Source: Polytrichum commune (lineage: Eukaryota; Streptophyta; Polytrichopsida; Polytrichales; Polytrichaceae). Taken from it: a DNA stretch of 64,000 nt. The notes below the pieces were generated by a model. That model was not told where the DNA came from and did not search any database. It was given only the letters and a program-made list of their open reading frames with translations. This document shows positions 48,000 to 53,200 of this stretch, one piece after another. Position 1 is the first letter of the stretch. Each line of letters begins with the position of its first letter. The stretch spans positions 24,663,501 through 24,727,500 of the forward strand of contig OX485805.1 of NCBI GenBank assembly GCA_950295325.1, read 5' to 3'. Position numbers and translations under genes: made by a program.

Positions 48000-49295
48000 T
48001 AATCTCCACTTTGTATTTGATTGCACCATATGCCTCCCCAACTTAACAGATATTAAAAGGTCAAGACATTTTTTACTTTTTTGGAACTTTGTTGATACAT
48101 GATTTGTTATACCTCCCTAGACATCGAAATATCTACGTGCAGGGATGGCCGTCTGACCCTGGTGACCTGATGACTGTGAGCTTTGGGCCCTTGTCGAAAC
48201 TTCCACTCTAGAACAGTGATCAATCCAAGCTCCTCATGGTCCAAGAGGTGATAGACAATTTTTGGGTCTGGAAGAATAAGGCTGGTCCATAGATTACTGC
48301 TGAAGCTGCAAAACCCAGCCAGAAGCATGCTCTTCACAGGGGTTCAGATGTGTCTGATGTGATATAGAGCAAAGGGTGCATCCCCTTTCTTTACTCCGAA
48401 TGGAGATGTGGATGCCTACCCCCTGGGTCCACAATTGTAAGAAAAACACACTACGCACTGTGTACTGTGCGACATTGTATCAGATGGTAGAGAAGCTCCT
48501 TCTTTAAGCCATGTTGCTTGCTACTTTTGCATTGAAAATAATGTAGCATTGTAATATTCATTTGCCAAATTTCAATGCGCGCACTTCCTCAAAATACACA
48601 AATCACATGGTGTCATGAGAAGATTGTCGATCGACGTTTTTAGTACTCTTGCACTGATTGAAGAACTGTTCTGTTCATCACATTTGGATTCCACGAACAG
48701 ATTTCAACATCGACACGCCCTTCGGGAATTGTTTTTAAGAATTGCTTTGGAAGCTTGAGAAATAGTTCTTCGAGGTATTTGTGGGCTATCAGTCACAAAT
48801 ACCTTCTTTTATCTTTTCCAAGTACAGTTCCAAAACCCTGAGAAGTTTCCACTAAATTTGCATCAAACAAATTGGGTTCTTTGGTAACATCTTACAGGAC
48901 GTGACGTAGCACGATTTAAATATTTCTCGCGTGTTCGTGACAAATTTGGAGCTGTGTAAGCATTTCCATTTTACTACCATGGAAAATCCATGCGATCACA
49001 TTTTCGTATTCATTATGACAAAAAGCCATATGGAAACGGATTTGACGTAGGATTCTTAAGGCTACATTAGATGTTACATTGTCCAGCAGGGTCTGGAGTC
49101 GGCACCCACGATCGAGTGCTAACTAATTCACCCACCGAAGTCTCTCTTTGCACCTTCTCTACTCCAACCAAGCAAGTCGGGTGGATGAACCGAAGTTACT
49201 TCATGATCCAATCGGTAGTTTCAAGTTCGAGAAAGTGCAACAATGGTGCCTAAACACCAATGCTGCTTTCTGTATGTATATGTAAAATGTTCTGA
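48000..49295. other. VAC14 3' UTR and intergenic spacer
   Basis: No coding frame with conserved motifs. A poly(A)-signal-like AATAAT followed by AT-rich sequence lies near 48538, so the VAC14 transcript may end around 48.56 kb. The rest holds nothing I recognise. Confidence 0.35.
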
Positions 49296-49453
49296 ATGTT
49301 CCAGTAGACAGGTCAATACGCGCTCATGAGAGGAGCATGCATTGGTTATAGACTGGTAGCCTCCCACCAAAGGGAGGCTCTTGTAGTATGTGCTTTTGCC
49401 GACACCCACTTCGTTCAAGAGTACAAAGTGGTAACGCCTCGCAGCAAAAGCAG
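49296..49453 (+). ncRNA. Candidate structured RNA, tandem copy 1
   Basis: This copy aligns with 49516-49670 (220 bp downstream). Four stems can be drawn: GCTC 322-325 with GAGC 333-336; AGCCTCCC 358-365 with GGGAGGCT 372-379; CACTT 407-411 with AAGTG 426-430; and GCTTTTGC 392-399 with GCAAAAGC 444-451 enclosing the third (add 49000). Single-stranded parts such as CGTTCAAGAGT and GTAACGCCTCGCAGC are identical between copies, while stem bases change in pairs. The strand is arbitrary because both strands fold. No snRNA, snoRNA, tRNA or ribozyme signature was recognised. Confidence 0.45.
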
Positions 49454-49515
49454 TGAACAGCTTGACACAAACTAAAACAAACTAAAAGTAAAGTGACGAC
49501 AAATGTGTCATTGTT

Positions 49516-49670
49516 ATGTTCCAGTAGACAGGTCAACATAAGCACATGAAATGTGCCGCATTGGTTTGAGACTGGCGGTTTCCAGAAGGAATACCATGGG
49601 TAATCTTTGCTCCCGCTGACACCCACTCCGTTCAAGAGTGCAGAGTGGTAACGCCTCGCAGCGGAAGCAG
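49516..49670 (+). ncRNA. Candidate structured RNA, tandem copy 2
   Basis: Same order as copy 1. Stems: GCACAT 542-547 with ATGTGC 551-556; GGTTTCC 577-583 with GGAATACC 588-595 (one bulge); CACTC 624-628 with GAGTG 643-647; GCTCCCGCTG 609-618 with CAGCGGAAGC 659-668, one mismatch (add 49000). It sits about 200 bp upstream of a TATA-like site and 610 bp upstream of the CSB start. Function unknown. Confidence 0.45.
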
Positions 49671-49869
49671 ATTGGATGATAACCTCCGCACATTAAAAGA
49701 TGAATTCAATGGTCACTCCGGACATAATCAAAGCGTCGCAACATCAGAAACAAACTCAACTGCTTAAACAACTGAAAAACCTAGGGCCATTAAGAACTCA
49801 AGAGGAGAGGAGGCCTGCAGTGACTGAAGAAACTGGAAGAGCAGATGCGGATTAGGGCTCAGGGCTTTT

Positions 49870-49879
49870 CTATATATAC
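49870..49879 (+). promoter_or_regulatory. TATA-like element upstream of CSB
   Basis: CTATATATAC lies about 410 bp before the CSB start codon, at a plausible distance for a leader of roughly 380 nt. It is the only TATA-type match in the spacer just upstream. Use as a promoter is inferred. Confidence 0.35.
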
Positions 49880-50283
49880 GGAGAAAGTCCCCCCCTTCCC
49901 TTTTCCATCGAACGGCGAAAACGGGATCCGAAAGTATTGACGGTTGGATCTGTGCCACGTTTTCCTATTCCAGTTTTCTGGAAACTTCCCTGAAAAGCAC
50001 TAAAATAAGCCACACATTTGTCAGGCAAACAGACAGGCAGACAGTTCCACGAAGAAACTCAAACGTATCAATCAAGGAGCGTCGACACGAAGCTGCAGAG
50101 CTCATCAACCATGTTCTTTGTGTGTGTGAAGTTTTTGCTGGATATCGTTGGAACGATGATGCCAATTCCATTCAATCCTCAGTTGTGTTCGCAACATGAG
50201 GATGATGTGTCGATGATTGGGATTCTAGGGTTAGAGGACTAAGGGTTGGTGGATTTGGGGTCCCGTGTTTTTGTTCTTCCGGT

Positions 50284-53200
50284 ATGAGTCGACATCGCAT
50301 CCGCCCTGCAGGGGAGGCTTCCACGAGCGGTGCTCCAGAAACGGAGGATGATGCTGCGCTGCTATCTACTTTGGGCGTTACTGCGGCTAACCCTGTAGAC
50401 ATTGAACGCACACTCCTGGCCGAGGTGCAAATGCTCTTCCCTCCCTTTGACCCCCATCTGTGCAGAGTTTTGTAACTCTTTTTCGCACTTTCTAGAGTTG
50501 CAGTGAGCAATTCCTATGGTCACTGGACTACGATTCTCTCACCAATTGGCTCTGTAAGTTTTTATTTTTATGTTTATTTTTTTTTGGGGGGGGGGGGGGT
50601 GGGGGGAGACCACATGCACAACTCATTTCACCCATGAAGCTTATATGTTTTTCAAATCCATAATGCCCACTGATAATTGAGAGAAATGCAACCCTCTTAA
50701 CCCCTTCCCGCCCTCAAGAATCATGGAGGGTCAAAGGACTCCAGAGGGTCTTTCTGTGTCTTTCTCAATAGTTGTTGGTGGACTATGAAGATTTATGATA
50801 TATATGGACTTCATATATGAGACGAGCATGCTCATTTCACCCACTATGTTTGATTCAAATTTATATTGTTCACCAATTATTGAGAGAGATGCAACCCTCT
50901 AAACCCTCAAGACTCATTAAGGGTCAAAAGACTTTAGAGGGTCTGTCTGTGTCTGTGTTACTCTAAATGATTGGTGGGAAATGAAGATTTATGATGTACA
51001 TGGACTTCATGTGTGCGATGAGCATGCGATATTGCCCCAAAATGCTTCAAATGCCGATGATTATTGTGAGAATCTTTTTACAGTGACCATAGGTTGGGAT
51101 TTTCACACCAGAGTGGGGGGATATTTTGTTTCTTCTCCTCTGTGCTCTTCAAAGTATGGATACAATTTTGTGGTGGGTTGCATTGCATCATTCTTATTAC
51201 AAGGAGCAACTGTGCTCATCACTCTCAGAAATATCATTTAAGGGTTATCTTCTTCTTTGCGGACCGGTGTATCAGGTTGAAGAGAAGGCTCGGGAAGGTC
51301 GTGTCAGATTGGATGACGAAGATGATGGGGGGGAGGGTGATGATGGTGAGGGTGGCAAAGATGATCCCCATTCGAACTTGCGAAGGCGCTTGCACAAGCA
51401 GGTGGTTGTGCTGGACCGGGAGATCAATGCAGTGGCAGATGGAGTGTATGGGGATGGGAAGCAGATGCTGGAAGAGGAGGAGGAGGAGGTGGTGGTGGAA
51501 GAATCTGTGAAGAAGAGCGCATCGCTGCACCGTGCATTGGCAGATGACAGATTGAGGAGCTTGCTAAGGAAGAGAAGGCAGCTCAAAGAGCAGTTGAAAG
51601 CTTTGGATGTGGAGGATGACAATGCACTGAAAAGTCTAGTTCAGGACATCACTCCTGTGCTGAAAATCAAGAAGGGGAAGAAACAAGAGGAGGAGGAGGT
51701 GATGGTGCCATCAAATTCTGGCAAGGATTTGGGTAGTGTGAATGCGAAGAAAAAAGTTGTGTGCCTTGTAGAAGACAACAATGTCTTTGATGCAGCTCTG
51801 GACTCTGCTGCCACTGGGTTCACGGAAACTGTAAGCATGTGTTTTTTTGTGAATGCATCATTCATGGTTTGCAATTTCATTCATGGGTTGGGTACCCTGT
51901 GATGTGATGCAGAGTCTGTGAATTTGAATTGAGTACAAATGCATTGTTGTAGCAAAAGTTGTGGAGTGTTTTCTTGAAAAAAAATTTTAAAAATTGGCAT
52001 TTGTTTTTCCTGCATCAGGATTTTTGTTTTGTCTTGTCTCTCCTGATTTCCTTGTGTCAATGAAATTGAGGCCTTAGTACACGTGCTATACTATAACTTG
52101 CTTGAGACTCCCATCGCCTCTGGAGATCAGTATGCAATAACTCAAGACAGGGCTTCTTCCATGCAAATTGACTGTTGTGGATGGTTTCTGGTCAAATTGC
52201 TTGCTACCACTTGGCTTCTGCTGCATGTGTGATTTGTTTGCTATTTCTGTCTAGTTTTTGGTTGCTTCCTTTTGATTGCTTTGTATTGAGTATGTAACAC
52301 TGTACGCATTGGATTAACTAGTACTCTTGATTCTTATTTTGTGATTCACTGGTTACCCATTGCTGTTTGCAAGGAAATTGTATCCAAATGTGCTTGGTAG
52401 GGCTGTGTTGCTGATCTTTTATGTTGGTAGAAATTGTGGATTGTGATTATCTGACATTCCTCTTTTATCTTTTCATGGCAGGAACGTGATAGGTTGATTC
52501 GCACAGGTGTAATGACTCCCTTTGATCAGATAAAAGGCTTTGAACGCAAGGTGCAGAGGGTGCCAATGGTTGCACCAAGGGCGGTGGCCAATTATCCAGA
52601 CGAGCTGCTGGCTAAAAAATCTCTCTCAAATCTAACCTCTTCCTTTGCAGCCATTGCCAAGTCAAGACCTACAAGCAAATTGCTGGATGCTTCTGAACTA
52701 CCCAAACAGGAGCCTCCCACTCGCGAGTTTAGACGCCTACAGAGGCCTTTGAAGCTGAGACCTGAACCTGAGCAGGAGGGACAACTGAAGGTTCGTAAGA
52801 AGTTTGTGAGGAAGACAAAGCGACCGCAACCTGAAAAGAAGTGGAGGCGGACGCATGATTCCTCTAGCGATGAGGATAATCAGGAGGATCCTGAGGGGGA
52901 TGGTAAGTCCAAACTGTTTTGTTGTTGACAATATTTTAAAGTGTCCCAATTGAAGGCAAACAAATTTTATGTGTTTGAGACTGGTGATTGATTGGTACCC
53001 ATGAAATCTCCAGATAGCTGGAGTGAGGAGCTAGAGGGCCAGCCAAAGAAAAAACGTGTACGAAAAAGCAGAACCAGTGGTGATGAACATGAGGAAGGCT
53101 TTGCAGAAGAAATTTTAGGTGAGGAGGATGTTGTGCTGGATGGTGGACTCAAGATTCCTGCCACAATCTATGACAAGTTGTTTGATTACCAGAAGACGGG

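Follow-up and report, generated by a model that had tools for sequence, protein, structure and literature searches.

Two tandem repeats between VAC14 and an SNF2 helicase gene of Polytrichum commune are very probably paralogous box H/ACA snoRNA genes with predicted rRNA targets

The window, by which we mean the whole 64,000-nucleotide stretch of P. commune DNA that was analysed, lies on contig C3 and carries two tandem copies of a repeat, copy A at positions 49294-49453 (160 nt) and copy B at 49514-49670 (157 nt), offset by 220 nt in their left part and by 217 nt in their right part. They follow exons of VAC14, recognised by Pfam in two of the four reading frames tested, and precede an SNF2 helicase gene, the one that a preliminary description of this DNA named CSB; the VAC14 exons and the SNF2 gene are both on the plus strand. 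The preliminary description had placed two copies of about 155 nt, 220 bp apart, between these two genes, and the window bears this out. Close to where the SNF2/CSB gene begins, positions 50513-51093 hold an inverted repeat with arms of 34 nt (79%) that are 513 nt apart and enclose stretches of two tandem copies of about 200 nt (77-86%), with plus-strand folding z scores of -5.6 and -5.3; this looks like a MITE-type element.

Differences between copies A and B had been reported to fall on paired positions. The change from T49324-A49334 to A49544-T49554 in stem 1, that from T49411-A49426 to C49628-G49643 in stem 3, and those from T49396-A49447 and T49397-A49446 to C49613-G49664 and C49614-G49663 in the enclosing stem (alignment columns 16-67 and 17-66) are all in the sequence, as read by eye. 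Stem 2 was said to have changed its sequence while still pairing; its hairpin does fold in both copies, but copy B misses four of the eight pairs in the alignment register.

Folding was compared with dinucleotide shuffles on both strands. The minus strand reached -64.5 kcal/mol in copy A (z about -5.6 to -5.99) and -54.0 kcal/mol in copy B (z about -2.74 to -3.0), energies matched by 0 and 1 of 200 shuffles, respectively. Plus-strand energies were -50.8 and -48.0 kcal/mol (z -1.4 and -1.1), matched by 17 and 27 of 200 shuffles. The structure described earlier is thus real, but it had been read on the wrong strand, since the minus strand folds far better. Across the four full copies found in the genome, the 44 pairs of the minus-strand structure give 176 pair cells: 135 Watson-Crick, 27 G-U, 3 C-A, 10 other and 1 gap. 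The 27 G-U against 3 C-A cells, together with boxes that stand at a fixed distance from the right guide arms, fix the strand as minus. The plus strand was rejected because the 27 G-U pairs would become C-A mismatches there and because its folding is near that of shuffles.

Over the four copies 92.6% of 175 cells pair, and displacing the partners by 1-3 columns lowers this to 36-50%. The consensus structure was drawn on copy A, a choice that favours the 92.6% figure. With the 3' letters shuffled, 1 of 500 trials reached this level of pairing and 13 of 500 reached the covariation score. Changes on both sides of a pair occurred in only 4 of the 44 pairs, with 64 of 500 shuffles doing as well, and further pair types over the four copies were matched by 96 of 500. 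Strict covariation is therefore weak, given four sequences, four double changes and shuffles that often equal them. The minimum-energy fold of one of the copies on contig C2 (C2b) differs from the H/ACA model. Support for a structured RNA under selection, which had been proposed in place of two decaying repeats, comes from minus-strand folding, strand-specific G-U pairs, boxes and pockets, and less from strict covariation.

Both copies have the anatomy of box H/ACA snoRNAs on the minus strand, although no match to a snoRNA had been recognised before. PMC8351944 characterises the class by a hairpin-hinge-hairpin-tail fold with ANANNA and ACA boxes, the target lying about 15 nt upstream of these. 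That fold is present in the copies, with an extra hinge hairpin in the four full ones; in minus-strand order we find a 5' hairpin, the H box, the hinge hairpin, a 3' hairpin with a 5-bp lower stem, pocket and upper stem, and ACA. In copy A (C3a), which ends in ACATTC, the 5' hairpin (49391-49453; fold, alignment and pair count) has an 11-bp lower stem, a pocket and a 9-bp upper stem. Its predicted left guide GAGGCGTT (49433-49440), invariant in the four copies, forms 8 bp with LSU AACGCCUC, a target also present in LSU fragments of the same genome, and its predicted right guide GTCG (49400-49403) forms four pairs, one of them G-U, with LSU UGAC; both emerged from a pocket scan. The H box ATACTA (49384-49389) is followed by the 8-bp hinge hairpin (49358-49379) and by the 3' hairpin with its pocket (49301-49356), both seen in the fold and the alignment. 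The predicted right guide of the 3' hairpin, ACCTGTCT (49306-49313), forms 8 bp with LSU AGACAGGU in the same scan, and the ACA box lies at 49297-49299. Copy B (C3b) ends in ACATAA and repeats this layout in fold, alignment and pocket scan: a 5' hairpin (49608-49670) with the left guide of copy A and the right guide GTCA, the H box AGATTA (49601-49606), a hinge hairpin seen in the fold and unlike that of copy A in sequence (49577-49595), a 3' hairpin (49521-49575) whose right guide is again ACCTGTCT, and ACA at 49517-49519. The boxes of both copies were located by alignment and by a grammar scan.

The ANANNA box occupies the same columns in all four full copies, its three A columns invariant and its three N columns variable. 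In each of them 14 nt separate the first base of the right guide GTC from that of the box, and ACA stands at the same distance from the first base of ACCTGTCT; this spacing, which depends on the predicted guides, fits the rule of about 15 nt in the accessible part of PMC8351944. ACA adjoins the 3' hairpin in all six copies, two of which are partial relatives. While the stems drift, no base differs among the four copies in the left arm of the 5' pocket or in the right guides, GTGTC and ACCTGTCT. Conservation does not extend to the left guide of the 3' hairpin, where three of seven bases differ between copies.

An Rfam scan, one of the checks suggested earlier, returned nothing at the gathering threshold in the window among 4227 families. 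In a relaxed search of 48900-50000, the two best of nine matches, both on the minus strand, were to the H/ACA families SNORA13 (E 0.077) and snoR137 (E 0.93), which share class and strand with the copies at scores far under gathering (25.2 vs 53 and 20.2 vs 44). A scan of the window with an H/ACA sequence-and-stem grammar gave six candidates, namely both copies and four others with folding z scores no better than shuffles (0.04, -1.07, 1.42 and -0.82), and missed a third RNA described below. The grammar is not specific, since 24 shuffled windows gave 3.5 candidates on average (range 0-9).

A DNA search of the 408-Mb genome with either copy as query gave four matches, two on contig C3 and two on contig C2, where the full copies lie 8 kb apart. 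The genome contains four instances of the 17-mer TGCGAGGCGTTACCACT, which spans the left guide of the 5' hairpin, and none of its reversed control. We built a covariance model from the four full copies and searched 82 kb with it (the window and the C2 stretches L010 and L011). It had six hits, every one of them on the minus strand; its own source sequences account for four, so that its match to copy A holds by construction, and in the window it found only copies A and B, with no third full copy at E up to 1. The other two were one further copy upstream at each C2 locus (rough E values of 3e-12 and 1e-8), at L010 5304-5405 and L011 4866-4997. These partial relatives keep the 3' hairpin and ACA, with its right guide unchanged in L010 and altered by one C-to-T change in L011, but their 5' hairpin is a different one and they lack the hinge hairpin. 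It seems that one guide module was exchanged in them and the 3' hairpin kept; the hinge hairpin is optional, since these two related copies do without it. What the sequences show directly is the strand, the anatomy, the boxes and the conservation between the paralogous loci.

Downstream of the two copies in the minus direction, at 49077-49240, lies a third H/ACA-like RNA on the minus strand, with a 12-bp 5' stem, a 3' hairpin and ACA at 49080-49082. The window copy folds as two hairpins ending near ACA (z -2.6; 3 of 200 shuffles as low), and the first base of CCAGAC, its predicted right guide, precedes ACA by 14 nt. The RNA is conserved at both C2 loci, at 78% in L011 (query bases 3-164 of 215) and at 83% at the 3' hairpin in L010 (bases 5-66). 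ACA is present at all three loci; a perfect ANANNA is absent in the window and was seen, by eye, only at C2b among the three. With it, the minus strand of this locus carries a cluster of at least three RNAs of H/ACA type.

Candidate targets were sought by scanning the pockets against 2,510 uridines in six rRNA stretches: the dispersed LSU and SSU fragments of the genome itself, three foreign LSUs (two of them partial) and one foreign SSU. A full rRNA of this genome was not found on the chromosomes, only scattered fragments. The LSU fragments are dispersed and partly rearranged, with 40 matches in one search and 94 in another (for example C3:16438478-16439227, C2:58186861-58188251 and C6:6798558-6798871), and the same few segments often stand side by side; an 18S query had 24 matches in the genome. 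Contig C22 (20 kb; L031 5289-7112) carries complete 18S and 5.8S genes next to an LSU that matches poorly. Its 18S is 93% identical to a plant-type query and reads GATAACG, as against GTTAACG in four chromosomal fragments; it looks foreign, the contig possibly being a contaminant, and served solely as background in the scan. Pieces of eukaryotic LSU rRNA are also carried by two IMG/VR 'viral' contigs (L002 1-361 and L001 12735-13115).

For the 3' hairpin, the top uridine in all four copies was that in GAGACAGGU-U-AGUUUU of the large rRNA. For the 5' hairpin it was, again in all four, the uridine in UUAUGAC-U-GAACGCCUC, with 8 + 4 pairs in the arrangement UUAUGAC-[U]-G-AACGCCUC; these four hits are not independent, because the arms are identical in three copies. 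The foreign LSU L005 has two bases changed at the equivalent site, which is not its top uridine. For the third RNA, the uridine in GUCUGG-U-UAAUUCC of 18S came first at two of three loci, and at C2a other sites score higher; the pocket borders of this RNA were set after the match had been noticed. All three predicted sites are contained in the dispersed LSU and SSU fragments of the genome itself. The score of the predicted target was reached by 34, 39, 45 and 68 of 300 shuffled guides for the 3' hairpins, by 96 to 130 of 300 for the 5' hairpins and by 142, 165 and 245 of 300 for the third RNA, that is, at chance rates of 11-43% for the copies and 47-82% for the third RNA. As shuffled guides so often score as high, we speak of predicted targets throughout.

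What chiefly speaks for the target assignment is that three different top hits coincide with known pseudouridines. We take the 3'-hairpin site to be yeast 25S Psi2975, a placement that combines a published table with the yeast sequence. The 5'-hairpin site is presumably Arabidopsis 25S U3100, which we place 135 nt after U2965 in the 25S sequence, with U2965 derived from Gm2912, equal to yeast Gm2922. The corresponding distance from the U2965 counterpart to the target uridine is 136 nt in the fragments of the genome itself, and human Psi4522, the putative U2965 counterpart, and Psi4659 are 137 apart. The 18S site of the third RNA follows the h31 uridine of GACUCAAC at 119 nt and the CCG cytosine at 30 nt. 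The choice of the h31 uridine is an assumption, with which its 89-nt distance to the cytosine agrees. Since human 1248, 1337 and 1367 have the same spacing, the third RNA's site corresponds to human U1367 and Arabidopsis 18S U1311.

The table used for the yeast placement is in PMC8307265, whose accessible part gives snR42 as the guide of Psi2975. According to the part of PMC8351944 available to us, Arabidopsis 25S U3100 has no known snoRNA and equals human U4659, and 18S U1311 is assigned to an 'unknown snoRNA'; human U4659 is pseudouridylated at 87% in the part of PMC6182160 available to us. In the literature within reach of our searches, which included a word search of PMC4660826, we saw no plant guide named for U3100 or U1311, and the accessible part of PMC10281867 holds nothing on the predicted target sites.

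The alternative that weighs most leaves the H/ACA anatomy untouched and is a sub-case of our main reading: at least one predicted target may be wrong, the RNA being an orphan snoRNA or acting on another rRNA or snRNA site. In addition to the scores of shuffled guides, it draws on the 5' pocket match, which works only if one or two bases stay unpaired between the guide duplex and the upper stem and has a right arm of only four pairs, on the variable left guide of the 3' hairpin, and on a scan confined to rRNA stretches, among them no full plant LSU or 18S. Against it, the three sites coincide with pseudouridines reported in yeast, Arabidopsis or human, and the window's own hairpins score highest on them. 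We regard it as a considerable possibility that clearly falls short of an even chance, and hold it slightly better than even that all three predicted targets are right. On the bolder proposal we are tentative, placing it a little below the even mark: the cluster would hold plant guides for U3100 and U1311, mapped pseudouridines that had none in the 2021 Arabidopsis survey, the U3100 guide would be of a three-hairpin form, and the hinge hairpin would have been gained or lost among paralogues.

Decay is a much weaker contender. If the copies were snoRNA pseudogenes that are no longer made, the drift of copy B and the window's third RNA, with its imperfect H box, would be accounted for, but both copies have kept their boxes, the spacing and three of the four guide arms, and the stems mostly still pair, so that we consider this improbable. 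A SINE or other structured mobile element, an alternative raised in the preliminary description, would explain two similar tandem copies in intergenic DNA and related pairs on C2; it is very improbable and was rejected, as was a tRNA origin, given the low copy number (four full copies in 408 Mb, each at a locus that also holds the third RNA), the absence of a tRNA gene in the window and the mostly invariant guide arms. Many genomic copies without conserved pairs, the case which had been held to count against a functional RNA, were likewise not what we found, as the four full copies mostly keep their pairs. Equally improbable is a structured element of a plus-strand transcript, such as a UTR of VAC14, which the plus-strand orientation of both neighbouring genes might suggest and against which the folding z scores and the G-U versus C-A count speak. 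We conclude with high confidence that the two repeats are tandem paralogous box H/ACA snoRNA genes on the minus strand; the earlier interpretation is partly supported, as regards a structured RNA under selection and its place between the two genes.

Mature RNAs of the H/ACA class have ACA exactly 3 nt from their 3' end and are bound by the dyskerin complex of dyskerin, NHP2, NOP10 and GAR1. By analogy, each RNA of the cluster would bind this complex. The cluster is probably transcribed into one minus-strand precursor, which may start from a promoter near 49.87 kb and would be cut into single RNAs. Two pockets would then pair with rRNA on either side of one uridine, which would be isomerised to pseudouridine; the predicted sites are the yeast Psi2975 site for the 3' hairpin, U3100/U4659 for the 5' hairpin and U1311/U1367 for the third RNA. 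Judging from their sequence, the copies most likely direct such conversion of rRNA uridines to pseudouridine.

The putative promoter consists of TATATATA (49871-49878), a possible TATA box of the minus-strand precursor, and, just downstream of it in the gene direction, a CCCTAA core (49852-49857, minus strand) that partly resembles a telo box. Because TATATATA is a palindrome it could serve the plus-strand gene instead, and CCCTAA occurs 26 times in the window on both strands. In the accessible part of PMC4660826, plant snoRNA clusters carry telo boxes (AAACCCTA) and Site II elements (TGGGCY) upstream of a TATA box. Upstream of the L011 cluster we found two Site II elements and a group of three telo boxes close together, and upstream of the L010 cluster one telo box and three Site II elements. 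The scanned upstream stretches contained no TATA string close by at either C2 locus, and no full telo box or Site II element in the window.

What had been an unknown structured RNA is now a gene cluster open to testing, since its boxes, guides and predicted target uridines can be named; it includes candidate guides for two conserved rRNA pseudouridines that have no listed guide in Arabidopsis. Paralogues with and without the hinge hairpin offer a small natural experiment on variation in H/ACA architecture. The kind of gene is ordinary, a box H/ACA snoRNA; what is unusual is the hinge hairpin and two predicted targets without a named guide in the Arabidopsis survey. With yeast snR42 the copies share the target uridine predicted for the 3' hairpin, a likeness of predicted job only that carries no claim of homology. 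The closer parallel is with the plant polycistronic H/ACA clusters described in the accessible parts of PMC4660826 and PMC8351944, which have the same tandem snoRNAs on one strand, the same ANANNA and ACA boxes and pockets and, as at the C2 loci, telo boxes with Site II elements. The P. commune cluster differs from them in the extra hinge hairpin of its four full copies and, in the window, in a putative promoter made up only of TATATATA and the CCCTAA core.
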